Below, one piece after another: positions 31,127 through 42,458 of a DNA stretch of 64,000 nucleotides. Numbering within the stretch: the stretch's first letter is position 1; the number at the start of each line of letters is the position of its first letter. The notes under the pieces were generated by a model. The model did not search any database and had not been told where the DNA came from. It was given only the letters and a program-made list of their open reading frames with translations. Origin of the DNA: Halorussus rarus. GTDB lineage: Archaea; Halobacteriota; Halobacteria; Halobacteriales; Haladaptataceae. Made by a program: the position numbers and the translations under genes. Where the stretch lies: the NCBI RefSeq assembly GCF_003369835.1, contig NZ_QPMJ01000001.1:434001-498000 (forward strand). The letters are read 5' to 3'.

Positions 31127-31684
31127 TCAGTCCGTCCCCGTCTCGTCCCCGCCGGTTCCGTCCCCGCCGTCCCGGAGCAGGACCGGTTCGGGGTCGTAGG
31201 CGGTCCGGACCGCGATGCGTCCCGTTCCGGTGTCGAACTCGACGGTCCGGCCCCGCCCGCCGCCGACGTCCTCTCCCGCGACCGGTACGTCCAGACCGCC
31301 GAACGCTTCGCGGGCCGTCGCGACGTTATCGTCGCCGACCTCCCGCGGAAGCTCCCGGAGGTCGAGCAGGTCGCTCCCGCCGACGACGTACCCCTCCAGC
31401 CCGGCGTAGCTCGCGCCCGCCGACACCGCCTCCCGGAGCAGTCGCTCGACCGCGGCGTCGACGTACTTGCCGTCGGCGGTGCCGCCGCCCTCCGACTGTC
31501 GGGGGAGCATCGCGTGGGCGAGCCCGCCGACCCCGTGCTCGGGGTCGTACACCGCCAGTCCCACGCAGGCTCCGAGGCCGTAGGCGACCAGCGTCGCGCC
31601 GTCGGCGACCACCTCGTACTCCGAGACGCCGACGAGGCGGCGCTCGCGATCGGGTTCCGAGAGGTCGGTCTCGTAGGTCTCCAT
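31127..31684 (-). CDS. cheD: Chemoreceptor glutamine deamidase CheD, 185 aa
   Basis: CheD deamidates Gln residues of chemoreceptors and binds CheC. The papain-like catalytic Cys40 is in GLGACVGLAVYDP and His57 in GGLAHAMLP. The ATG at 31684 is preferred to the GTG one codon before it. It is the last gene of the leftward chemotaxis cluster, 63 nt after cheC. The acidic Gly-rich C-terminus is a haloarchaeal addition. Confidence 0.93.
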   Translation of the reverse strand: METYETDLSEPDRERRLVGVSEYEVVADGATLVAYGLGACVGLAVYDPEHGVGGLAHAMLPRQSEGGGTADGKYVDAAVERLLREAVSAGASYAGLEGYVVGGSDLLDLRELPREVGDDNVATAREAFGGLDVPVAGEDVGGGRGRTVEFDTGTGRIAVRTAYDPEPVLLRDGGDGTGGDETGTD

Positions 31685-31747
31685 CACGCGGTCACCTCCG
31701 TCGTCACGAGTCGACGACCCCCGTCGTCGCCGGTCGGTGTGGCCCAG

Positions 31748-32605
31748 TCACGGATCGATGACCTCCAGGCCGACCGCCGAGAGCTTGGTCACGAACTCCC
31801 GCCGGCCGGGGAACACGTAGATGGTCGCGTTCACGTCGTACTCGGGAATGTGCAGCCGCGACCGGATGAACAGCCCGACGCCGTACTGCTTGAGGATGCG
31901 CGCGACCAGGGTCCGCTCGGGGTCCTGGACCGCGACCGGCGACCCGGTGTCGATGGTAGTGTCGAACAGCGTCGCCCACTCGTCGACGAACCCGTTGGCC
32001 ATCATGTTGCAGAGCTCGGTCAGCGCGTCCCGTCCCATCTCGGTCGAGACCGACGAGAGGTCCTCGACCGCCCGCCGGAGCATCAGCGCGGCCGCCTTGT
32101 TCGCGCTCGCCATCGGGAACACGACCAGCACGTTCCCGACGAGGGGCTCGCTCAGCAGGACCCGCGCTCCCGCGCGGTCGGCCGCGACGAACTGGCCGCC
32201 GACCGTCCGCTGCTCGGCGTAGCCGACCTTGACCTGCTCGGTGGTCGCGGTCAGGTCGTCGTCGAGCACGTCGTTGAGCCGGTCCTCGACCCCGGTGACG
32301 CCCCGGTCGCCCAGCCAGTTCAGCACCGCAAGCGTCTTCAGCGGAATCGCCTGCTCGGCGTCTGAGACAGAACCCCTGTCGGGCTCGCCGTCGCGCGCAT
32401 CGCGGTCCGTTCCGCCCGCGTCGGGGGTCTGGCGTTCGTCGCCCCGAGCCCGCTCGTCGTCGGCGCGGGTCCGCTCGTCGTCCTCGCCGCCCGATGTCGC
32501 GCCGGCCTCAGCGTCACCCGACTCGGCGCCGCCCGATTCGGTGCCGCCGCCCGACCCGGCGCCGCCCTCGCGGGTCCGCCCGGTCGCGTCGCGGCCGGGC
32601 GTCAT
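31748..32605 (-). CDS. cheC: CheC-family phosphatase with long acidic N-terminus, 285 aa
   Basis: CheC dephosphorylates CheY-P and regulates CheD. The CheC core starts near residue 85 (AIPLKTLAVLNWLGDRGVTG). It contains one active-site helix with the E-x-x-N motif (DALTELCNMMANGFVDEW) followed by the conserved Pro (GSPVAV). Residues 1-80 are low-complexity Gly, Asp, Glu and Arg. The ATG overlaps the cheW stop (ATGA). This is the single-domain partner to the double-domain protein at 35906-37240. Confidence 0.88.
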   Translation of the reverse strand: MTPGRDATGRTREGGAGSGGGTESGGAESGDAEAGATSGGEDDERTRADDERARGDERQTPDAGGTDRDARDGEPDRGSVSDAEQAIPLKTLAVLNWLGDRGVTGVEDRLNDVLDDDLTATTEQVKVGYAEQRTVGGQFVAADRAGARVLLSEPLVGNVLVVFPMASANKAAALMLRRAVEDLSSVSTEMGRDALTELCNMMANGFVDEWATLFDTTIDTGSPVAVQDPERTLVARILKQYGVGLFIRSRLHIPEYDVNATIYVFPGRREFVTKLSAVGLEVIDP

Positions 32606-33108
32606 GCCTGGGCCCTCGCTTCGTCGACCAGCGCGTCGAGGTCGAGCACCCCGAGCGGGTCGTCCCCGTCATCGGGGTCGGCGACGACCGCCCGGAACCA
32701 CCGCCGGTTCGCCGGCGGCTCCCAGTCGGCCGACGTCGGCGTCTCGATGCGCCCGACGTGTCGGGCGTCGATACCCGCCACCTCGTCGACGAGCAGGCCC
32801 GTCGGCCGGGCGTCGCTGCGGTCGAGCACCAGCAGCGTCGACTCTTCGTCGGACGCTCGGGGCGGGAGGTCCAGCAGCGCCCGGCCGTCGACGACCACCG
32901 GAATCCGGCCCCCGAGGTTGGCCACGCCAGCGATGGCGGGTCCGGTGTGGGGGACCGGGGTCACCGCCGGCGCGTCGAGAACCCGCTCGACGTGGCCGAG
33001 TTCGAGGCCGTACTCGTCGCCGCCCAGCCCGAAGCGGACGAACTCGACCCACTCGCGCCGGTCCGCCGCGGCCCCCGTCGTCGTCGCGCTCGATAGCTCG
33101 CCGCTCAT
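32602..33108 (-). CDS. cheW: CheW coupling protein, 168 aa
   Basis: CheW links receptors to CheA. The CheW fold is visible: FVRFGLGGDEYGLELGHVERVL, VPHTGPAIAGVANLGGRIPVVVDGRALL, and TGLLVDEVAGIDARHV. It starts 3 nt after the receptor gene and overlaps cheC by 4 nt, so receptor, CheW and CheC are one operon. Its dedicated placement suggests it serves this receptor in particular. Confidence 0.95.
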   Translation of the reverse strand: MSGELSSATTTGAAADRREWVEFVRFGLGGDEYGLELGHVERVLDAPAVTPVPHTGPAIAGVANLGGRIPVVVDGRALLDLPPRASDEESTLLVLDRSDARPTGLLVDEVAGIDARHVGRIETPTSADWEPPANRRWFRAVVADPDDGDDPLGVLDLDALVDEARAQA

Positions 33109-33111
33109 CCG

Positions 33112-34950
33112 TCAGGCCTCCCCGTCGCCGAGGGGTTCGGTCGGCTCGCCGCCGGGTTCGGGGGACTCGGCCAGCGGGTCCTCCGTGGAGACGTCGGTCG
33201 AGTCGGTCCCTGCGTCGGTATCGACATCGGCGACGGCCGGGTCGATTTCGGCCGCGTCGGTCTCGGCGGTGTCCGCCTCCGCATCGCTCCCGACGTCCGC
33301 GGTCGAGACGGACACGGGCTCGGTGTCGCGGTCCTCCGGCGGGAGCGGGTCGTCGGCGTCGGCGGTCGCGTCGCCTTCGTCGGGAACCGCCGAGTCGTCC
33401 GTATCGACTCCCGACCCGTCGGCGTCGGCCCCGGCTGATTTGGAGCCGTCGTCCTCGTCCGCGTCGTCGCCCGCGTCCTCGCCGATGGCGTCCTCGGTGT
33501 CGAACGAGTCCAGCGCGTTGCTGAGCCGGGTCGCCTGGCGGGCCAGGTCGCTCGCGCTGTCCGAAACCTGCGAGAGGGCCGTCGTCTGGGACTCGCCGGC
33601 GGTCGCCACGGTCTCGGCTTCGGCCGTGATGGCCTCGCTGACCGCCGCGGCCTCTTCGACCATCTGGAGGGCCTCCTCGGTCGAGTCGGCCTGCTGCTGG
33701 GTCGCGTCGGAGATCTCCTGGACGCCCGCGTTGGTCTTCTGGGCGTAGCCCGCGATGTCGGCCAGCGCCTCCGCGGCGTTCTCGACCGAGTCGGTCTGCT
33801 GGGAGATCCGGTCGCTGGTGTCCCGGACCTCGTCGACCGTCCGGTCGGTCTGGTGCTGGATGCGGTTGAGCCGCCCCTCGATGTCGCCGGCCGCCTCCTT
33901 CGTGCGCTCGGCGAGGTCCTTGATCTCGTTGGCGACCGCCGCGAAGCCCGCGCCCTGCTCGCCGGCGCGGGAGGCCTCGATGTGAGCGTTCAGGGCGAGC
34001 ATGTTGGTCTGCTCGGCGATCTCGGAGATGAAGTCGATGAGCTCGTCGACCTGCTCGACCTCGGATTCGAGCCCCTCGATGGCCTCGACGGTCTCCTCGG
34101 ACTCGGTCTCGATATCGTTCATCCCCTCGACCGCGTCGGTGGCGGCCGCCCGGCCCTCGCGGCCGGTCTCGGCGGTCCGCTCGGCGATGGCGGCCACGTC
34201 GTCGGTCGAGGCCGCGACCTCCTGTACCGCGGTCGAGAGCCGGTCCATCTGGTCGGCGGCCGCCCGGAGGTCGCCGGTCTGGGCCTCGGCGTCGACCGAG
34301 ATGTCCCGGAGCGAGTCGACGACCCGCAAACTCCCGTCGCTGACCTCCTCGGTGCTGAGCGTGACCTCCTGGCTGTAGGTGGCCACCTCGTTGGCGAACC
34401 GGGTGAGGTTCTCGACGGTCGCCTCGAACTCCTCGAGCATCGCGTTGAACTCGGTCGCGACCCGGTTCATCGCCTCGCTCTCGGAGCTGGGTTCGACCCG
34501 CTCGCCGAGGTCGCCGTCGGCGCACCGGCGCATGACCCGGCCGTACTCCTCGGCGGTCTGCTCGACGTGGGCGTGGAGGTCCTCGGCTTCGAGCCGTGCG
34601 CGGTGCTCGTCCAGCAGCGTCTCGTGGGTGTCGGCCATCGAGGCCGCGACCCGGCCCACGCAGTCCGCGCGGGCGGAGTCGAACGACGGCTCCTCGCCGT
34701 CGGCCCGCCGGTCCGCGCTCGCCACGAGCCGGTCGAGCGCCCGGCTCGCCCGCCACGAGACGGTCGTCCCGACGGCTCCCGCGAGGAGCGCGCCGCCGAG
34801 CGTCGCTCCGACGACAGTTCGGTCGAACTGACCGGTCGCGTACACGCCTCCTGCCGCGAGAGCGCCGACCGCCGCCATCGTCAGACCCACCTTCAGCGGG
34901 TAGCGCCGCCTGACGAAGCCGGGGACGACCGCTCGCACAACGTTAGCCAT
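33112..34950 (-). CDS. Methyl-accepting chemotaxis protein without extracellular domain, 612 aa
   Basis: Two TM helices (about 21-39 and 46-65) are separated by only a few residues, so nothing senses outside the cell. HAMP-like and long coiled-coil regions follow. The signalling hairpin [31 protein letters not shown] is near residues 310-345 and binds CheA and CheW. From about 487 to the end is a disordered acidic tail of Asp, Glu, Ala and Thr. It is next to an H-NOX gas sensor gene, the most likely source of its input. A TATA lies 25-32 nt before the ATG, so it has its own promoter. Confidence 0.94.
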
Positions 34951-34974
34951 TGAGCGAACACAATCAGTACGACG

Positions 34975-34982
34975 TAATAAAT
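34975..34982 (-). promoter_or_regulatory. Core promoter of the chemoreceptor-cheW-cheC-cheD operon
   Basis: ATTTATTA on the minus strand lies 25-32 nt before the receptor ATG. It is inside an AT-rich 90-bp gap (34951-35040). Confidence 0.5.
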
Positions 34983-35107
34983 CTTAACGAAACATGAACG
35001 AAGAGTTATAAAAATATAGCGCCAGGTAAAATCAACCGTCGAAACATATCTGTAGAACCGACCGAGATACGATCACGTTCAGCGAGAGGGTCGCGGACCA
35101 ACGACCG

Positions 35108-35647
35108 TCAACGCCGGACGACCAGTTCGCACCGGTCGTCGCCATCGCGCATGCACGTCCGCTCGTCGACGGCGAACGCCTCGCCGTAGTAGTCGCCGAC
35201 GCCCCGGAGCAGCCCGACCGCAAGCGGGCAGAGCTCCCGGTCGGAGGCGTAGGTCACCACCACCTCGTCGGCCCCGACCCGCTCGGCGCCGAGGTTGGGC
35301 GGGGTGTAGGTCGACAGCTGCTTGCCCCGCAGCGCCTCGTGGATGTACGTCTCGACGTTGGCGATCAGGTCGAGGCCGGTCCAGTCGGCGTCGACGTGGA
35401 CGCCGTAGGTCTCGACCAGCGACGGCACGAGGAACCGGCCGAACGCGTCGAGCAGGTCGGGCACCGACTCGCCGGTGACCGCCGACGCCGCCTCCACGAG
35501 CGCGAGCGCGTCGGCGTCGGCGTACTCGGTCACCGGGACGTACACCGTCCCGCCGAGGTCCGCGCGGTCCCGGACGGTCCGCCAGGCCTCGTCGTCGTAC
35601 TCGGCGGTCACGAAGTCCTTCAGCCCCTTGAGGACGATGCCGTGCAC
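35108..35647 (-). CDS. H-NOX heme NO/O2-binding sensor protein, 179 aa
   Basis: H-NOX domains bind NO, and some bind O2, through a heme with a His ligand. The N-terminus VHGIVLKGLKDFV matches the family start HGxxxxxLxxFV. The heme-ligating His103 is in NVETYIHEALRG, the Pro that distorts heme is in YTPPNLG (116-117), and the heme-propionate motif YxSxR is YASDR at Tyr133, Ser135 and Arg137. Length is that of a stand-alone H-NOX. The start is GTG at 35647, two bases after the stop of a 37-codon ORF. Its place between cheA/cheC and a receptor lacking a sensor domain suggests it controls that receptor. Confidence 0.88.
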   Translation of the reverse strand: MHGIVLKGLKDFVTAEYDDEAWRTVRDRADLGGTVYVPVTEYADADALALVEAASAVTGESVPDLLDAFGRFLVPSLVETYGVHVDADWTGLDLIANVETYIHEALRGKQLSTYTPPNLGAERVGADEVVVTYASDRELCPLAVGLLRGVGDYYGEAFAVDERTCMRDGDDRCELVVRR

Positions 35648-35649
35648 GG

Positions 35650-35763
35650 CTACCGCTCCCGCCCGGCGGGCCCGGTCGCGGCGCGCGCTGATCCCGACCC
35701 GACGACGCCTCGCTCGGTCCAGTGCGCCGCGTCCGGCGGCGGGTCCCTCCGACGCTGGTACAT
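35650..35763 (-). CDS. 37-aa upstream ORF before H-NOX
   Basis: It runs from ATG at 35763 to TAG at 35652-35650; the H-NOX GTG begins after 2 nt. The peptide begins MYQRRRDPPPDAAHWTERGV and is basic, unlike the acidic proteins here, so it may be regulatory rather than functional. A TATA-like TTATACTA (35786-35793) lies 23-30 nt upstream, so a leaderless transcript would start at this ATG. Confidence 0.4.
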   Translation of the reverse strand: MYQRRRDPPPDAAHWTERGVVGSGSARAATGPAGRER

Positions 35764-35785
35764 GTTTCAATCGGATTCGGACTGA

Positions 35786-35793
35786 TAGTATAA
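35786..35793 (-). promoter_or_regulatory. Core promoter for the uORF/H-NOX transcript
   Basis: TTATACTA on the minus strand, centred about 27 nt before the uORF ATG. Confidence 0.45.
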
Positions 35794-35905
35794 CTGTTCT
35801 GGCCGTCATGATAGAGGACGCTTCGGAGCGAAAGTTAGGGGTTCGTGGGGTGAGGGGCAGTATCCCCCCAGAAAGGTAACTCTCGTCGGAAGGACGGCTC
35901 GCGGC

Positions 35906-37240
35906 TCAGAGCGAGTCCCAGTAGTCGAGGTCCATCTCCTCGCCGGAGAGGTCGGTGTCGGCCTCGGGTTCCGTGTCGGCCACCCGGGCCATGTCGAACT
36001 CGCCGAGCGCGGTCCGGAGGTCCGCCTCGTCGGGGATGACGTAGATGTCGAGGTCGACCTCGGTGTCGACCGCCTCGATGCGGGTGTCGAAGACGAACGC
36101 GAACTCCTGGGACTCGCCCAGCCCCACGACGAGGGGGTCGACCACCGCCGCGCCCATGTCGTGGGCGTAGGCCGGTGTCGAGTGGTCGATGGTCGTGTCG
36201 AGCAGGTTGGCCCACCCGTCGAGCATCCCGCTGGCCATCACGTTCGACAGCTCCTGGACGGCGTCGCGCTCGAACGCGCCGAAGTCGGTCGCGGTCCGGC
36301 CTTCGACGCTCCGACTCACCAGCCGCCGGGCCGAGCCCTCGTCGAACAGGAAGAGGAGGTAGCCGCTGGGCATCCCGGAGAAGCTGAACGCCACGCCGAT
36401 CATCCGCTCGGTCGACACCTCGCTGGGGATGGCGTCGAGCGAGATGAAGTTGATGCGCCGGATGTCGACGTCCATCTCGATGTCGGTCATCTGGGTCAGG
36501 TTGGCCGCCACCTGGGTCGCGCCGCGCTGGGCGATGCGGTCGAACCCGACCAGCTTCTCGAACTCGATGGCGCGGTCCTCGGTCCGGGCCCGGAACAGCC
36601 GCCGGACCGTCTCGGCGTCCGGAATCAGGTAGTGGCGGAACGTCAGTTCCTCGCCGACCGCCTCGAGGTTGTTCCGGAACAGCACCGCGAGGTCGTCGGA
36701 CGCGGGCGTTCCGGACCGCTCGCCCGTCTCGGCGGTTTCGGCAGCTACCGTGTCGCCATCGCCGCCCGTTCCTGCTCCCGCCAGCGCGAATTCCGCATTG
36801 CCGAGGAACGCGTCGGGGTCGTCGGCCGTCACGTACGTCGGTGCCGACACGTCGACGTTGGTGTCGAGCACGTTCGCCCACCCGTCGACGAACCCGTTGT
36901 TCATTATCTGGGCGATCTCGGTCACGGTGCTCTCCCGGAGCGTCCCCTCCTCGACGGTGGGGACGTCCGCGACGACCGCCGAGGCGATGGTCTCGGCGCT
37001 CTCGCGGTCGAACAGTAGCAGCGAGGTCCCGCCGACCCCGTCCGAGAGGCCCACGCGGATGCCGACCCACTCGGCGTCGGCCAGTTCGCGCGCGACCGAG
37101 TCGTCTCTGGTGAAGTTGAGGTGGGTGACCTCGACCCGCGCCGGGATGTCGGTCATCGAACTCAGTCGACTGGCCGCCAGGCCGGCGCCCTCCCGGGCCA
37201 TCTCGTAGAACGTCCCGAGGGTGTCGACGTCGAGTTTCAT
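35906..37240 (-). CDS. Double CheC-like chemotaxis protein, 444 aa
   Basis: Two CheC-like units are arranged in tandem, about 1-160 and 220-410, joined by an acidic linker. Each has the FVDGWANVLDT / MLDGWANLLDT signature after the active-site helix. In unit 2 the helix has the catalytic pair E-x-x-N (VQELSNVMASG). In unit 1 it is E-x-x-Q (VTEIAQIMNNG), which may impair phosphatase activity. Its ATG overlaps the cheA stop. Probably a CheY-P sink or adaptor; catalytic role partly uncertain. Confidence 0.85.
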   Translation of the reverse strand: MKLDVDTLGTFYEMAREGAGLAASRLSSMTDIPARVEVTHLNFTRDDSVARELADAEWVGIRVGLSDGVGGTSLLLFDRESAETIASAVVADVPTVEEGTLRESTVTEIAQIMNNGFVDGWANVLDTNVDVSAPTYVTADDPDAFLGNAEFALAGAGTGGDGDTVAAETAETGERSGTPASDDLAVLFRNNLEAVGEELTFRHYLIPDAETVRRLFRARTEDRAIEFEKLVGFDRIAQRGATQVAANLTQMTDIEMDVDIRRINFISLDAIPSEVSTERMIGVAFSFSGMPSGYLLFLFDEGSARRLVSRSVEGRTATDFGAFERDAVQELSNVMASGMLDGWANLLDTTIDHSTPAYAHDMGAAVVDPLVVGLGESQEFAFVFDTRIEAVDTEVDLDIYVIPDEADLRTALGEFDMARVADTEPEADTDLSGEEMDLDYWDSL

Positions 37241-40200
37241 AGCGTTGCCACGTCCAGCACGTTCACCGCGCGGCCGTCGCCCAGCGTGGTCGCCCCGCTG
37301 ACGCCGGGGACGTCCCGGAGCAGGTCGCCGTAGGGCCGGACCACGACCTCCTGGGACGTCACCATCCGGTCGCACCGCAGCGCGAGCCGGCCGGCCTGGG
37401 TGCGGAGCCAGACCATCTGGTCGCCGGCCTCGGGCTCGGAGTCGGTGTCGGAGCCCTCGAGCCCCAGCGCGGACGCCAGCCGAACGTGGGGGTAGGCGTC
37501 CTCGGCCTCGACGCCCTCCGGCAGGCCGCCCACGAGGTCGAGGTCCGACCGCCGGACCACCTCCCGGCCGTTCTCGGTCTCGACCGGCGGTGCGGGCGTC
37601 ACCTGCTCGACCGCGGTCATCGGGACGCCGAACGTCTGGCCGGTCGTCGCCACGAACAGCACCTCGGTCAGCGCGATGGACACCGGGACCGTGAGCCGAA
37701 CGGTGGTCCCCACGCCGGGGTCGCTCTCGACGCTCACCGTGCCGTTGAGGTCGGCGACCGTCCGGTGGACCACGTCCATGCCGACGCCCCGGCCGCTCAC
37801 GTCGGTCACCTCATCGCTGGTGGTGAATCCCGGCTCGAACAGCAGGTCGTAGGTCTGCTCGTCGCTCAATTCCGCGGCCTCGGCCCGGGTGACGACGCCG
37901 TTCTCGACGGCTCGGTCGCGGACCGCCTCGGGGTCGACGCCCCGACCGTCGTCCGAGAGCTCGACGACCACCTCGTCGCCGACGCGCTCGGCCGAGATGG
38001 CGACGGTCCCGTCTCGCGCCTTGCCGGCCGCCTCGCGCTCCTCGGGCGGTTCGATGCCGTGGTCGACCGCGTTGCGCGCGAGGTGGACCAGCGGGTCCCG
38101 GAGCCGGTCGACGATGGAGCGGTCGAGCTCCACGTCGGCGTCGTCGGCGACGACCTCGACCTCCTTGCCCTGCGAGCGAGCCACGTCCCGGACGGTCCGG
38201 GGGATCTCCTCGAGCGCGGTCTCGAGCCCCACGAGCCGCACGTCGACGACGGTCCGGCGGTACTCGGTGACGATCCGGAGCAGGTTCGACACCTCCTCGC
38301 GGACGGCCTCGTCGGTCTCGGGGCCGACCGCCTCGTCGAGCCGGAGGTGTGACAGCGACAGCTCCTCGGCGACGTTCAGCAGTCGGTCGGCGGTCTCGAC
38401 GTCGACGGTCGTCGCCTGCAGCCGGTCGAACTCCCGGGTGTCGCCGGCGCGCTCCCCGCCCCGGTCCGGGAACTCCGCGGCGTCGAGGCTGCTCGCCTCG
38501 ATGGTCGGCACCGCAGACCGGAAGACCTCGCCCTCGTCGCCGGCGTCCTCGCTCCCCGGCCCGGTGCCGAGCAGGTCGCCGAACCGCGACTCGAACTCCG
38601 CCATCTCCTCGTCGACCGCGACGTCCATCTCGGCGCCGCCGCCCGCGTCGGAGTCGCCGTCGAGGTCGGCGTCGAACTCGCCGCGGAGGTCCACGCCGAG
38701 GTCGGTCTCGGGCAGCGAGTCGGGGTCCGGCATCGGGTCGGCGTCCGACGCCGGTTCGGCGTCCGGCATCGCGTCCGGGTCCGGAAGCGAGTCCGCGTTC
38801 GGGGCCGACTCCGCAGTAGGCACCGAGTCCGCGTCGGGGATCGAGTCGTCGTCCGGAACCGGATCAGCGTCCGGTGCCCCGTCGTCGGCCGCGACCGTGT
38901 CGGCGTCCGTCCCGTCGTCCGCCGCGGTCGCTGGTTCCGCGTCCGACGCCTCGTCCGGCGTCGCGGACGACGTCGGTTCCCCGGGCGAGACCGATCCGTC
39001 GCCGGATTCCGGCGCGTCCTCGGCCTCGTCGCCCCCGAAGACGAACGTGCCCGGCTCTTCGGTCTCTTCGGTCTCGTCGGTCTCGTCGACTCCCTCGACC
39101 TCGCCGTCCGCGTCTGGCTCGCCACTCGCGTCGGTCGTCGCGTCGGGCGCACCGACCGCCCCGTCTTGGTCGTCGTCCGGCGACGGATCGGCGTCGGCCA
39201 GCCCGAGGGGGTCGCCGATCGCGTCGGCAGGCTCGCCGCTGCTCTCGCCGACCGCCGCGCCGCCCGCCGGGTCGGCGTCGACGTCGCCGGTCCCGAGCAG
39301 GTCGGGCGGCAGGTCAGGGGAGTCGCCGCTTCCGGTCGGGGCGTCGGCCGATTCCGACGCCGGTCCGGCGGCGCCGTCCTCGGAGGGGGCCGCCGCGGCG
39401 TCCTCGTCCGGATCCTCCTCTGGTTCGAGCGCCAGCAGCTCCTCGATGGTGTAGGTGTCCTCGTCGTCGAACTCGCCGAACTCGACCGCGTCGATGTCGG
39501 CCTGGAGGTCGTCGACGCCCTGGTCGTCGTCGACCCGCCGTTTCGTCTCCTCGAAGAACGCCGAGGGTTCGTCTGGGGTCTCCGCGGGACCAGGGCCGGC
39601 GGCGGAGTCGGCGTCGTCGGCCCCTCGCAAGGAGTCGGCCGAAGTCGAACCGGACGTCGCGGAGTCGGTCCCGAGGTCGCCCTCGTCGCCGAGCATGCCC
39701 CACCCGTCGAGTTCCTCGTCGTCGGCCGGGTCGTCCAGCCCGTCGAGCAGGCCGTCGATGTCGTCGAACTCGGAGGTCTCCTCGAGCGCCGCGACGACGT
39801 CGTCGCTCAGCCCCTCCTCGGCGGGGTCCCAGTCGTCGTCAGGGTCGGCGAAGCCGGACGCGGCGGCGTCGAGCGTCGCGTCCGAGTCGGTCGGCGTCCG
39901 CGCGCGCTCCTCGTCGAGGGTCGCCCGAAGTGACGCGCAGGTCGCGGCGACGTCGCCCTCGACGTCGCCGCCGACAGCGTCGGTCCGGACCGTCGCTTCG
40001 AGGAGGTCGACGGTCGCCAGCGCCTCGTCGATCAGCGCGGGCGTCGGTTCGACCGCGCCGGCCCGGAGCGCGTCGAGCGCGTCCTCGACCGCGTGGGCCA
40101 GGTCGCCGGCGTCGTCGAGCCCGCGGGTCCGGCACGACCCCTTGAGCGAGTGGGCGACCCGGAACAGCTCGGCGACCGGCGCGTCCGCGTCCCCGCCGGC

Positions 40201-40281
40201 CTCGGCGGCGAGCAGGCCGTCGTTCAGCGTGCGGATCTGGGACCTCGCCTCGCGGCGGAAGGCGTCGTCAGTCGGAGCCAT
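37237..40281 (-). CDS. cheA: Chemotaxis histidine kinase CheA, 1014 aa
   Basis: CheA phosphorylates CheY in response to receptors. The HPt domain (about 1-115) has the phospho-accepting His44 in VAHSLKGSC. P3 dimerisation is at about 620-690. The ATPase domain has the N box VHLARNAVDHG (near 735), G1 DDGRGVD and G2 GRGVGMDVV. A CheW-like domain fills about 860-1010. Between HPt and P3 lies an unusually long acidic linker of roughly 500 residues with Pro-Asp-Ala-Asp-type repeats. No separate P2 CheY-binding domain is recognisable. It overlaps the next gene by 4 nt. Confidence 0.96.
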   Translation of the reverse strand: MAPTDDAFRREARSQIRTLNDGLLAAEAGGDADAPVAELFRVAHSLKGSCRTRGLDDAGDLAHAVEDALDALRAGAVEPTPALIDEALATVDLLEATVRTDAVGGDVEGDVAATCASLRATLDEERARTPTDSDATLDAAASGFADPDDDWDPAEEGLSDDVVAALEETSEFDDIDGLLDGLDDPADDEELDGWGMLGDEGDLGTDSATSGSTSADSLRGADDADSAAGPGPAETPDEPSAFFEETKRRVDDDQGVDDLQADIDAVEFGEFDDEDTYTIEELLALEPEEDPDEDAAAAPSEDGAAGPASESADAPTGSGDSPDLPPDLLGTGDVDADPAGGAAVGESSGEPADAIGDPLGLADADPSPDDDQDGAVGAPDATTDASGEPDADGEVEGVDETDETEETEEPGTFVFGGDEAEDAPESGDGSVSPGEPTSSATPDEASDAEPATAADDGTDADTVAADDGAPDADPVPDDDSIPDADSVPTAESAPNADSLPDPDAMPDAEPASDADPMPDPDSLPETDLGVDLRGEFDADLDGDSDAGGGAEMDVAVDEEMAEFESRFGDLLGTGPGSEDAGDEGEVFRSAVPTIEASSLDAAEFPDRGGERAGDTREFDRLQATTVDVETADRLLNVAEELSLSHLRLDEAVGPETDEAVREEVSNLLRIVTEYRRTVVDVRLVGLETALEEIPRTVRDVARSQGKEVEVVADDADVELDRSIVDRLRDPLVHLARNAVDHGIEPPEEREAAGKARDGTVAISAERVGDEVVVELSDDGRGVDPEAVRDRAVENGVVTRAEAAELSDEQTYDLLFEPGFTTSDEVTDVSGRGVGMDVVHRTVADLNGTVSVESDPGVGTTVRLTVPVSIALTEVLFVATTGQTFGVPMTAVEQVTPAPPVETENGREVVRRSDLDLVGGLPEGVEAEDAYPHVRLASALGLEGSDTDSEPEAGDQMVWLRTQAGRLALRCDRMVTSQEVVVRPYGDLLRDVPGVSGATTLGDGRAVNVLDVATL

Positions 40282-40344
40282 CCCTGTACCCCCGCGAGGC
40301 GTCGGGTCGCAGGCGCCGGTCGGCGTCGTCGGTCGCGACCGCGG

Positions 40345-40716
40345 TCACGGGGCGACCACCCCGTCGATGGCGTCGGTCAGCTCCTCGTCCTCGAACGGCT
40401 TGGTGATGTAGGCGTCGGCGCCCGCCCGCGCGGCCAACTGTATCTTCTGGCGCTGGCCCACGCTGGTGCACATGATGACCCGCACCTCTTCGTCGAGCTT
40501 CTTGATCGCGGCGGTGGCCTTCAGCCCGTTGGCCTTCCGCATCACGATGTCCATCAGCACGAGGTCGACCTCGTCGGCGTGCTCCTTGTACCGCTGGATG
40601 GCCCACGCGCCGTTGGGCGCCTCGGCGACGATGCGGTACTCGTCGGCCGCGAGCGCGCTCTTGACCCGCTGGCGCATGAACTCCGAGTCGTCCACGATGA
40701 GAATCCCGGTCTTCAT
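40345..40716 (-). CDS. cheY: Response regulator CheY, 123 aa
   Basis: A single receiver domain. Acidic pocket Asp9/Asp10 (IVDDSEFM), phospho-acceptor Asp56 (LVLMDIVM), Thr84/Ser85 (CTSVGQ) and Lys106 (ITKPFEDEEL) are all present. It is the first gene of the leftward chemotaxis cluster, 63 nt before cheA. The ATG at 40716 is chosen over an in-frame start at 40857 because the upstream DNA holds the promoter. Confidence 0.96.
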   Translation of the reverse strand: MKTGILIVDDSEFMRQRVKSALAADEYRIVAEAPNGAWAIQRYKEHADEVDLVLMDIVMRKANGLKATAAIKKLDEEVRVIMCTSVGQRQKIQLAARAGADAYITKPFEDEELTDAIDGVVAP

Positions 40717-40750
40717 GGCGTGATACCTGTTATTCGCTCCGAGCCGTGCA

Positions 40751-40764
40751 AAGTATAAAATACT
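40751..40764 (-). promoter_or_regulatory. Core promoter of the cheY-cheA transcript
   Basis: AGTATTTTATACTT on the minus strand lies 35-48 nt before cheY, which would give a leader of about 10 nt. Confidence 0.5.
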
Positions 40765-40860
40765 ACTCCCCGGAAATATACCACCGAATCCGACAGTTCG
40801 CCACCGCTGACACTTTTTCAGGCAGTGGTGGTCGGTGAATTTCCGCAAATCGGCCAATAC

Positions 40861-40868
40861 ATTTAATC
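40861..40868 (+). promoter_or_regulatory. Core promoter of the truncated hemoglobin gene
   Basis: ATTTAATC lies 28-35 nt before the GTG start at 40896. It is back-to-back with the cheY promoter about 100 bp away, so the two could share regulation. Confidence 0.45.
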
Positions 40869-40895
40869 GCCTCGGTTATATCCGATTAGTCACAC

Positions 40896-41258
40896 GTGTC
40901 CCAGACCCTCTACGAACGGCTCGGCGGTCGCGACGCCATCGCGGCGGTGGTCGAATCGTTCTACGAGCGCGTCCTCGACGACGAGCGCGTGGCTCACTTC
41001 TTCGAGGACGCCGACGTGGCGTCGCTCCGGACCCACCAGACCCAGTTCCTCGCGTCCGCGACGGGCGGTCCGGTCGAGTACGACGGCGCGGACCTCGAGA
41101 CCGCCCACGCCCACCTCGACATCGGCGCGCAGGACTTCGAGATCATCGCGGTCCACCTCGACGAGGCGCTGGCGTCGTTCGAGGTGCCCGACGGCGAGCG
41201 CGGCGAGGTCCTCGCCGCGGTCGGCGAACTCGAACCGGCCGTCGTCTCGGCGGAGTGA
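40896..41258 (+). CDS. Truncated hemoglobin (group 1-like), 120 aa
   Basis: A 2-over-2 globin that binds O2 or NO. The start TLYERLGGRDAIAAVVESFYERVL includes the B9-B10 Phe22-Tyr23 pair. The proximal heme His is probably His71 in ETAHAHLDI, and the C-terminal helices follow (FEIIAVHLDEAL). Length is standard. The start codon is GTG. Divergence from cheY, beside an H-NOX chemotaxis module, makes a role in NO or O2 handling linked to taxis plausible but unproven. Confidence 0.9.
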   Translation: MSQTLYERLGGRDAIAAVVESFYERVLDDERVAHFFEDADVASLRTHQTQFLASATGGPVEYDGADLETAHAHLDIGAQDFEIIAVHLDEALASFEVPDGERGEVLAAVGELEPAVVSAE

Positions 41259-41333: not shown

Positions 41334-42458
41334 ATGGAACCGACGTCGAGACGAGCGTTCGTATCCGCGATGGCGGCCGCCGTCGGCGGGCTGTCGGGGT
41401 GTCTCGGCGGTGCGACCCCGCAGCCGCCGTCGGACCGGGACGAAGGGGAGTCGGCACAGCCCGCGACCACGACGGGAGAACGAATGGGAGGAGTCCCGGT
41501 CCGCAGCACGGCGCTGCCGGTCGAGTACGAGCTCGGGGCGCTCCGCGACGAGGTGCTGTCCGGTGGCCCGCCCAAGGACGGCATCCCCTCGATCGACGAG
41601 CCCACGTTCTGGGGCGTCGACAGAGCCGACCGGGAGCTTCGCGACCGGGACGTCGTCTTCGGGCTGGTCCGTAACGGCGAGGTGAAAGCGTACCCGCAGC
41701 GGATTCTGGTCCACCACGAGATCGTCAACGACGTCGTGGGCGAGCAGCCGGTGGCGGTGACCTACTGCCCGCTGACCGGGACGGCGATGGGGTTCCGCCG
41801 GGGCGAGACCACGTTCGGCGTCTCGGGCGAGCTGCTGAACAACAACCTCGTGATGTACGACCGCGCGACCGACAGCCGCTGGCCCCAGGTGCTCGCGACG
41901 GCCATCTCCGGCGAGTTCGAGGGGAAGTCGCTGCAGGAGTTCCGGCTGGTCTGGACGACCTGGCGGAAGTGGAGGACGGCCCACCCCGAGACGAGGGTCC
42001 TCTCGACCGACACCGACGCGCTCCGCGACTACGGCAACGACCCCTACGGCTCGTACGTACCGGACCCCGCGGGCTACTACTCGCGGGACGCGACGCTGTT
42101 CCCGCCGCTCGGCCGCGACGACCGCCTGCCGAACAAGGCGGTGGTCGTGGGGGTTCGCACCGGGGACGGGCGCCTCGCGGTCGAGAAGTCCGCGCTGCGG
42201 GAGGCGGGTCTCCTGTCGGGATCGGCGGGGTCGGACGACGAGTCGACCCACCTGGCAGTCTACGACCCGACCCTCGACACGGCGTACGTCTACCGGAACC
42301 CGGACGACGCAGCCTTCGACTACCGGGACGGTCGGGCGGTCGCCGCCGACGGCACCAGCCACGTTCCGGCGGACCTGCCGCTCGACCGGGTGTACGCCTT
42401 CGACGCGATGTGGTTGGCGTGGGCTGGCTTCTACCCGAGCACGGGGCTGGTGACCTGA
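41334..42458 (+). CDS. DUF3179 domain Tat lipoprotein, 374 aa
   Basis: The signal SRRAFVSAMAAAVGGLSGC has twin Arg and a lipobox, placing the protein outside the membrane. The DUF3179 domain is recognised by AYPQRILVHHEIVNDVVGEQPVAVTYCPLTGTAMGFRR, DSRWPQVLATAISGEFEGKSLQEF and PNKAVVVGV. The conserved YCPLTG Cys and the HHE His/Glu could bind metal or a cofactor, but the biochemical role of the family is not established. The next gene starts one base inside its stop (TGATG). Confidence 0.9.
   Translation: MEPTSRRAFVSAMAAAVGGLSGCLGGATPQPPSDRDEGESAQPATTTGERMGGVPVRSTALPVEYELGALRDEVLSGGPPKDGIPSIDEPTFWGVDRADRELRDRDVVFGLVRNGEVKAYPQRILVHHEIVNDVVGEQPVAVTYCPLTGTAMGFRRGETTFGVSGELLNNNLVMYDRATDSRWPQVLATAISGEFEGKSLQEFRLVWTTWRKWRTAHPETRVLSTDTDALRDYGNDPYGSYVPDPAGYYSRDATLFPPLGRDDRLPNKAVVVGVRTGDGRLAVEKSALREAGLLSGSAGSDDESTHLAVYDPTLDTAYVYRNPDDAAFDYRDGRAVAADGTSHVPADLPLDRVYAFDAMWLAWAGFYPSTGLVT

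Follow-up and report, generated by a model that had tools for sequence, protein, structure and literature searches.

Chemoreceptors that take their input from a heme protein or from a separate partner provide the closest points of comparison for the chemosensory gene cluster described here, which lies in a window of 64,000 nucleotides from the haloarchaeon Halorussus rarus (contig NZ_QPMJ01000001.1, positions 434,001 to 498,000; coordinates below are those of the window) and encodes a stand-alone H-NOX protein beside a methyl-accepting chemotaxis protein (MCP) and a set of Che proteins. The transducers of the sensory rhodopsin/Htr and BasB/BasT pairs of Halobacterium receive their signal from a separate protein, a rhodopsin or a binding protein, whereas the present cluster offers a putative soluble heme protein together with its own CheA and CheY. 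The ODP protein of Treponema, with its MCP, is said to be a soluble metal-based gas sensor that feeds chemotaxis in trans; it is reportedly di-iron and bacterial, unlike the heme-type archaeal H-NOX considered here. HemAT, a globin fused to an MCP, shares the principle of heme-based gas sensing by a haloarchaeal MCP but senses O2 through its fused globin. An excerpt of PMC3579733 lists HemAT of Halobacterium with O2 as its signal and states that certain Htrs have separate receptor proteins as their interaction partners.

H-NOX proteins themselves fall into two groups in the excerpted text of PMC8738867: those of obligate anaerobes are O2-type domains in fusion with MCPs, and those of facultative anaerobes are NO (nitric oxide)-specific proteins. 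The fusions, represented by Tt H-NOX (PDB 1u4h), likewise use H-NOX as the input of an MCP, but they form one chain of the O2 type with a distal Tyr (PMC8738867, same excerpt), whereas here the two open reading frames (ORFs) stand 157 bp apart and the distal Tyr is absent. The H-NOX/HnoK systems of Shewanella and Vibrio also have a separate H-NOX gene, an NO-type pocket and a three-Cys site, and S. oneidensis H-NOX is the best match to the window protein in both sequence and fold; their partner, however, is a histidine kinase, while the neighbour here is a sensorless chemoreceptor accompanied by a full Che set. A stand-alone H-NOX of the NO type that signals to a sensorless MCP would thus cross the divide between O2-type fused and NO-specific proteins. 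The cluster is not described in the accessible portions of the open-licence literature on H-NOX, haloarchaea and chemotaxis (including PMC8646023, PMC8738867 and PMC12889525), and the term ‘HNOB’ is absent from the available main text of the archaeal chemoreceptor survey PMC9680633.

We lean towards the view that the cluster encodes a dedicated second chemosensory pathway of the Halobacteria, which would be driven by a stand-alone NO-type H-NOX and whose output need not be swimming. The argument is built on gene content, conserved residues, recurrence, receptor architecture, a separate Che lineage and the genes missing from Halocatena. If correct, it would describe an archaeal NO-sensing pathway; the non-motile Halocatena would make it testable what a chemosensory array does without archaellum, CheF, CheR or CheB, and a receptor with one soluble input would be a clean system for studying cytoplasmic signal entry into an MCP.

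Gene content and recurrence of the cluster

The genes, named from their Pfam matches, lie on the minus strand in the order cheY, cheA, double cheC, H-NOX, MCP, cheW, cheC and cheD. The chemosensory core is complete: the MCP of 612 aa (33112..34950; PF00015, 3.4e-37), the coupling protein CheW (32602..33108; PF01584, 8.7e-23), a CheA of 1014 aa in which a long acidic linker accompanies the Hpt, HATPase and CheW domains (37237..40281; PF01627, PF02518, PF01584) and CheY, a single receiver of 123 aa identified by Pfam, alignment and tree (40345..40716; PF00072, 3.1e-27). The H-NOX gene itself encodes 179 aa from a GTG start (35108..35647; PF07700, 3e-32). The spacing to the preceding gene is 258 bp and to the following one 157 bp, and a search of these two gaps for a remnant of a second H-NOX gave no match. 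The remaining members are a double CheC with two CheC repeats (35906..37240; PF04509, 2.7e-13, and PF13690, each in two stretches), a CheC of the CheY-P phosphatase type with an acidic N-terminal extension (31748..32605; PF04509, 2.3e-7) and CheD, a receptor deamidase or CheC partner (31127..31687; PF03975, 6.3e-19). An overlap of 4 bp joins the end of cheA to the start of the double cheC, and another of 4 bp joins cheW and cheC. A truncated hemoglobin (trHb; 40896..41258, plus strand; PF01152, 1.3e-21) diverges from cheY across 179 bp. CheR and CheB do not occur in the cluster, and the single copy of each in the genome sits in a canonical che cluster on contig 2.

All of this bears out the original prediction, which had named these genes, their order and the divergent trHb, had placed an H-NOX with His103 and a YxSxR motif between cheA/double cheC and a receptor with almost no loop between its transmembrane (TM) helices, and had remarked on the missing cheB and cheR; the canonical cluster on contig 2, the tandem H-NOX genes of relatives, the missing distal Tyr and the three-Cys site go beyond it. 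The closest named relatives at the locus are Halorussus aquaticus and halophilic archaeon LT46, whose H-NOX is 75% identical.

The recurrence of the cluster was assessed in 391 genomes of the class Halobacteria, 86 of which carry a PF07700 match. From these, 115 regions around matches outside the window were fetched and the window proteins mapped onto them, and 120 H-NOX-like proteins (114 of the fetched loci, the window and locus L032) were compared and assigned to full che clusters (class A), H-NOX/MCP pairs only (class B) or receptor-unlinked loci (class C). Thirty-eight are MCP-linked, 14 in full clusters and 24 in pairs, with L062 counted as a full cluster although its contig ends before any MCP; the other 82 are unlinked. 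The heme His is kept in 38/38 MCP-linked proteins and in only 10/82 unlinked ones. Heme-His H-NOX proteins occur at 43 loci, two of which (L059 and L062) lie at a contig edge, and at 32 of the 41 judgeable loci an MCP stands directly downstream on the same strand (8 full clusters and 24 pairs). With a background of 1 to 16 MCP matches per genome in nine genomes, this exceeds what chance would give, although a binomial probability would be unfair for loci related by descent. The gene order that had been singled out for comparison in other haloarchaea is therefore conserved, and gene content and recurrence are both solidly established. Tandem H-NOX genes with the heme His in both copies are present at L032, L037, L039 and L065.

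At 9 of 12 full clusters trHb is a neighbour, by cheY in Halorussus-like and by H-NOX in Haloferax-like genomes, and it is next to 0/3 Halocatena-type full clusters; the earlier idea that the hemoglobin tunes the ligand is one that we would keep as a conjecture. Clustering of the ORFs around 11 clusters (13 loci), with a shared extra output gene in mind, returned nothing widely common beyond Che, H-NOX and trHb. Downstream of trHb in the window is a gene for a DUF3179 protein (41334-42458, plus strand), which is also near trHb in L032.

The H-NOX protein and the neighbouring receptor

The window H-NOX is the sole PF07700 match in its genome (112 bits, cut-off 25.5). An AlphaFold 2 model (pLDDT 89.4) has S. 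oneidensis H-NOX (4u99, TM-score 0.91) as its top fold match, and S. oneidensis H-NOX is likewise the nearest solved relative by sequence (6e-17), followed by the S. woodyi and Nostoc proteins; the value for Tt H-NOX is about 1e-5. The protein carries His103, Pro117, Tyr133/Ser135/Arg137 of the YxSxR motif, Cys140, Cys165, Cys173 and Glu162, and is predicted to bind heme. The distal-pocket residues Trp9, Asn74 and Tyr140 of Tt H-NOX presumably correspond to window positions 9, 73 and 142, all of which are nonpolar (Leu9, Leu73 and Leu142). Among the MCP-linked proteins, position 142 is V/L/F/W/I, position 73 V/L/I/A and position 9 L/I/F, so that the distal Tyr that marks O2-type H-NOX is found in 0/38. 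The excerpt of PMC8738867 describes this Tyr as requisite for O2 binding and the H-NOX of facultative anaerobes as NO-specific. Its absence, along with the nonpolar residues at the Trp9 and Asn74 positions, argues against O2, which had also been put forward as a ligand, and makes NO the likely one.

The three Cys align with those of S. oneidensis H-NOX, and Glu162 stands near the expected position of a His or Gln; zinc is bound by three Cys and a His or Gln in H-NOX of the S. oneidensis/V. cholerae type (PMC7108781, in the text available). The three Cys are kept in 38/38 MCP-linked and 72/82 unlinked proteins, and Pro117 and YxSxR in 38/38 linked ones.

The neighbouring receptor has a TM hairpin (residues 21-39 and 46-64, six residues apart by Kyte-Doolittle hydropathy scan, the method used for all TM calls), a signalling domain (270-437) with the tip NAHIEASR, an acidic tail and no sensor domain. 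Its AlphaFold 2 model (mean 65.9, with low confidence over the TM region and the tail) consists of N-terminal helices followed by a coiled coil, without a globular domain. This architecture recurs: 32/35 H-NOX-linked MCPs have TM helices 4-12 residues apart (11/11 in class A, 21/24 in class B), the other three, all class B, have no TM helix, and 0/35 have an extracellular domain. A Pfam scan of ten H-NOX-linked MCPs gave no PAS, Cache or globin domain, the matches being MCPsignal, weak HAMP and coiled-coil types only. In the same-genus genomes G000, G374 and G384, 20 of the 25 other MCPs comprise three with a hairpin, one with a wider gap, seven with an extracellular domain and nine without TM helices. 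The tip reads IEA[S/T]R in 34/34 H-NOX-linked MCPs in which it is readable, IEAA in 19/19 readable other MCPs of the same genus and IEAAR in other Haloferax-type MCPs (9 readable of 11).

Conserved adjacency, hairpin receptors and separate Che proteins together support the proposal that a soluble H-NOX serves as the sensor of a sensorless receptor in trans. It is probable that H-NOX signals to the neighbouring receptor, presumably by direct contact, and the input may possibly combine NO in trans with a redox signal.

A second Che lineage beside the canonical system

The canonical cluster on contig 2 encodes a CheA with a P2 domain, CheB, CheR and CheD; no more than 30 kb away are two CheF matches, one ArlDE match and an archaellin. 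For the window CheA no P2 domain is matched even at an E-value limit of 1, and it scores 479 bits on the CheA_Halo equivalog (cut-off 950), compared with 968 for the canonical CheA of the same genome; three other H-NOX-linked CheA score 403-527 bits, and the cut-off is also missed by the Haloferax-type canonical CheA of L156 (858 bits). Three genomes of the genus with H-NOX (G000, G374 and G384) have two CheA and six without H-NOX have one, in counts that include split matches. In the trees, CheY from 11 H-NOX clusters form one clade (support 95/83), and 18 canonical CheA form a group (100/99) that excludes the CheA of H-NOX clusters. The separate CheY clade, the CheA scores far below the cut-off and the differing MCP tip indicate that the pathway is probably a dedicated one that would be insulated from the canonical system. 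We read the tip differences as a sign of two kinds of array, the H-NOX receptor belonging to the kind that is at odds with the CheF system in the same genome.

In G005 (L161 1964-9094, L219 128-2934), a compact MCP-CheW-CheY-CheA-CheC2-CheD cluster, whose CheY is the sister of the H-NOX-cluster clade (100/98), is convergent with a set of gas vesicle genes some 33 bp away. Among these, GvpO was identified by Pfam, and GvpN-, GvpC- and GvpA-like members by visual inspection. Canonical che systems with no CheF match occur in G028, G143, G005, G293, G033 and class B genomes, and all 12 class B genomes without an ArlDE match still keep a CheA.

Output of the pathway and competing explanations

Archaeal CheY-P acts on the archaellum via CheF, and the CheF contact on CheY is formed by alpha1 and loops beside the phosphorylation site, as set out in part of PMC9126983. 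The H-type CheY of the H-NOX clusters keep D56, T84 and K106 but, in 11/11, differ from 15 canonical CheY (9 F-type, 6 N-type) at alpha1 Leu17, which is Arg, and lack the Pro four residues past the phospho-Asp, after DIVM, where Arg or Ala stands instead; they also have a two-residue insertion at 47-48. These differences favour another output, less firmly so for motile genomes such as that of the window.

The most telling genomes are Halocatena G183 and G277, each of which has one CheA and one MCP, both within the H-NOX cluster, and 0 matches for CheR, CheB, CheF and archaellin. YIM 93972, the strain of G183 (now named Halocatena halophila), forms hyphae and spores, has lost the archaellum and PilB3 pili, and lacks cell motility, according to the available text of PMC10067837. 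Both H-NOX and CheA (the latter at E 1e-30) are unmatched in two further genomes of the genus, G338 and G361. ArlDE matches occur in four genomes of the genus, and archaellin is unmatched in all four. As a sign of an archaellum the match was rejected for G183, where it lies in a solo ArlDE-domain protein (L196 7720-9867; 1.8e-13) that adjoins a salactin gene (2e-179). Across the sample, ArlDE was not found in 12/24 class B genomes as against 74/367 others (Fisher 0.0017, kinship of the genomes ignored). As non-motile relatives keep the cluster, it may control something other than swimming. Taken as a general rule, a non-archaellar output is a tentative suggestion, with better prospects in Halocatena.

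We propose the following mechanism. NO would bind the ferrous heme of H-NOX, which would act on the adjacent receptor, at its cytoplasmic portion; this receptor has nothing but a TM hairpin as its anchor. The receptor would set the activity of its own CheA via its own CheW, CheA would phosphorylate its own CheY, and CheC, double CheC and CheD would reset and adapt a pathway that lacks its own CheR/CheB pair. At least for the non-motile Halocatena, the output partner of CheY would be something other than the archaellum. More speculatively, and with rather less conviction, this methylation-free, NO-responsive pathway (H-NOX, sensorless receptor, CheW, CheA, CheY, CheC/CheD) might steer a non-swimming process such as a switch of growth form or surface life, and would then be the only chemosensory array of the cell in hyphal, non-motile Halocatena.

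The principal alternative is ordinary NO taxis through a second pathway wired to the archaellum, whose CheY-P and that of the canonical system would both use CheF. The genome of the window encodes an archaellin, ArlDE and two CheF, half of the class B genomes (12/24) do have an ArlDE match and the cluster CheY retains the D, T and K, so that taxis could operate in this organism; nevertheless, the retention of the cluster by Halocatena and the altered CheY surface lead us to regard this explanation as the less likely one. Of the predicted NO or O2 taxis, O2 as the ligand finds no support, and taxis itself becomes doubtful, as G183 and G277 keep the cluster with no match for archaellin, CheF, CheR or CheB. 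Several observations also weigh against a dedicated pathway with its own output. The CheA of H-NOX clusters form two groups rather than one clade, with weak order between them, and 9/41 judgeable heme-His loci have no adjoining MCP. The S/T tip is not specific to H-NOX receptors, being carried by four G143 MCPs that do not adjoin H-NOX, which implies that the pair-only receptors may feed an ordinary array. A link to denitrification found no support, NirK (TIGR02376) exceeding its cut-off in 4/8 full-cluster genomes (G000, G374, G078, G305) and in 208/391 overall. The absence of CheF alone proves nothing about motility, because the archaellum-bearing G028, G143 and G033 also lack a CheF match, and with CheF and an archaellum in the genome of the window the cluster CheY may still reach the motor.

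Two further alternatives concern the input. H-NOX could be mainly a heme-independent redox or zinc sensor acting through C140/C165/C173, with NO secondary: in V. cholerae H-NOX that lacks heme, oxidation is sensed at a site of this kind (PMC7108781, in its accessible part), and the three Cys together with Glu162 occur in all 38 linked proteins. The heme His, Pro117 and YxSxR are equally invariant there, however, and it is the heme site, not the Cys, that tracks receptor linkage, since His-less unlinked paralogues mostly keep the Cys (62/72); we therefore consider this improbable. Still less credible to us is that the receptor itself senses in the membrane and that H-NOX has a different regulatory target, for instance CheA or the hemoglobin. 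The MpcT transducer of H. salinarum, whose signal is membrane potential, has two TM helices (PMC3579733, excerpt), and the tight hairpin recurs in 3/20 other MCPs; on the other hand, the 24 H-NOX/MCP pairs have no other che gene nearby and in one of them only is there a hemoglobin, 3.8 kb away, while three H-NOX-linked MCPs have no TM helix at all. A dedicated NO-type H-NOX pathway is the explanation we favour.

Among H-NOX proteins without an MCP, the heme-His protein of L060 (4275-9683) has a multi-PAS histidine kinase on one side and a PNPOx-type flavoprotein on the other. The class C loci fall among L038-L150 (e.g., L073 7111-8586), and 72 of the 82 receptor-unlinked HNOB proteins have no heme His (Tyr in 40). 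At 69 of these 72 loci, the same-strand gene just upstream clusters with that of L073, a PRPP synthetase (NF002095, 2.7e-91; the L073 gene being the only one scanned), which suggests that this heme-less HNOB family may be tied to ribose-phosphate metabolism.

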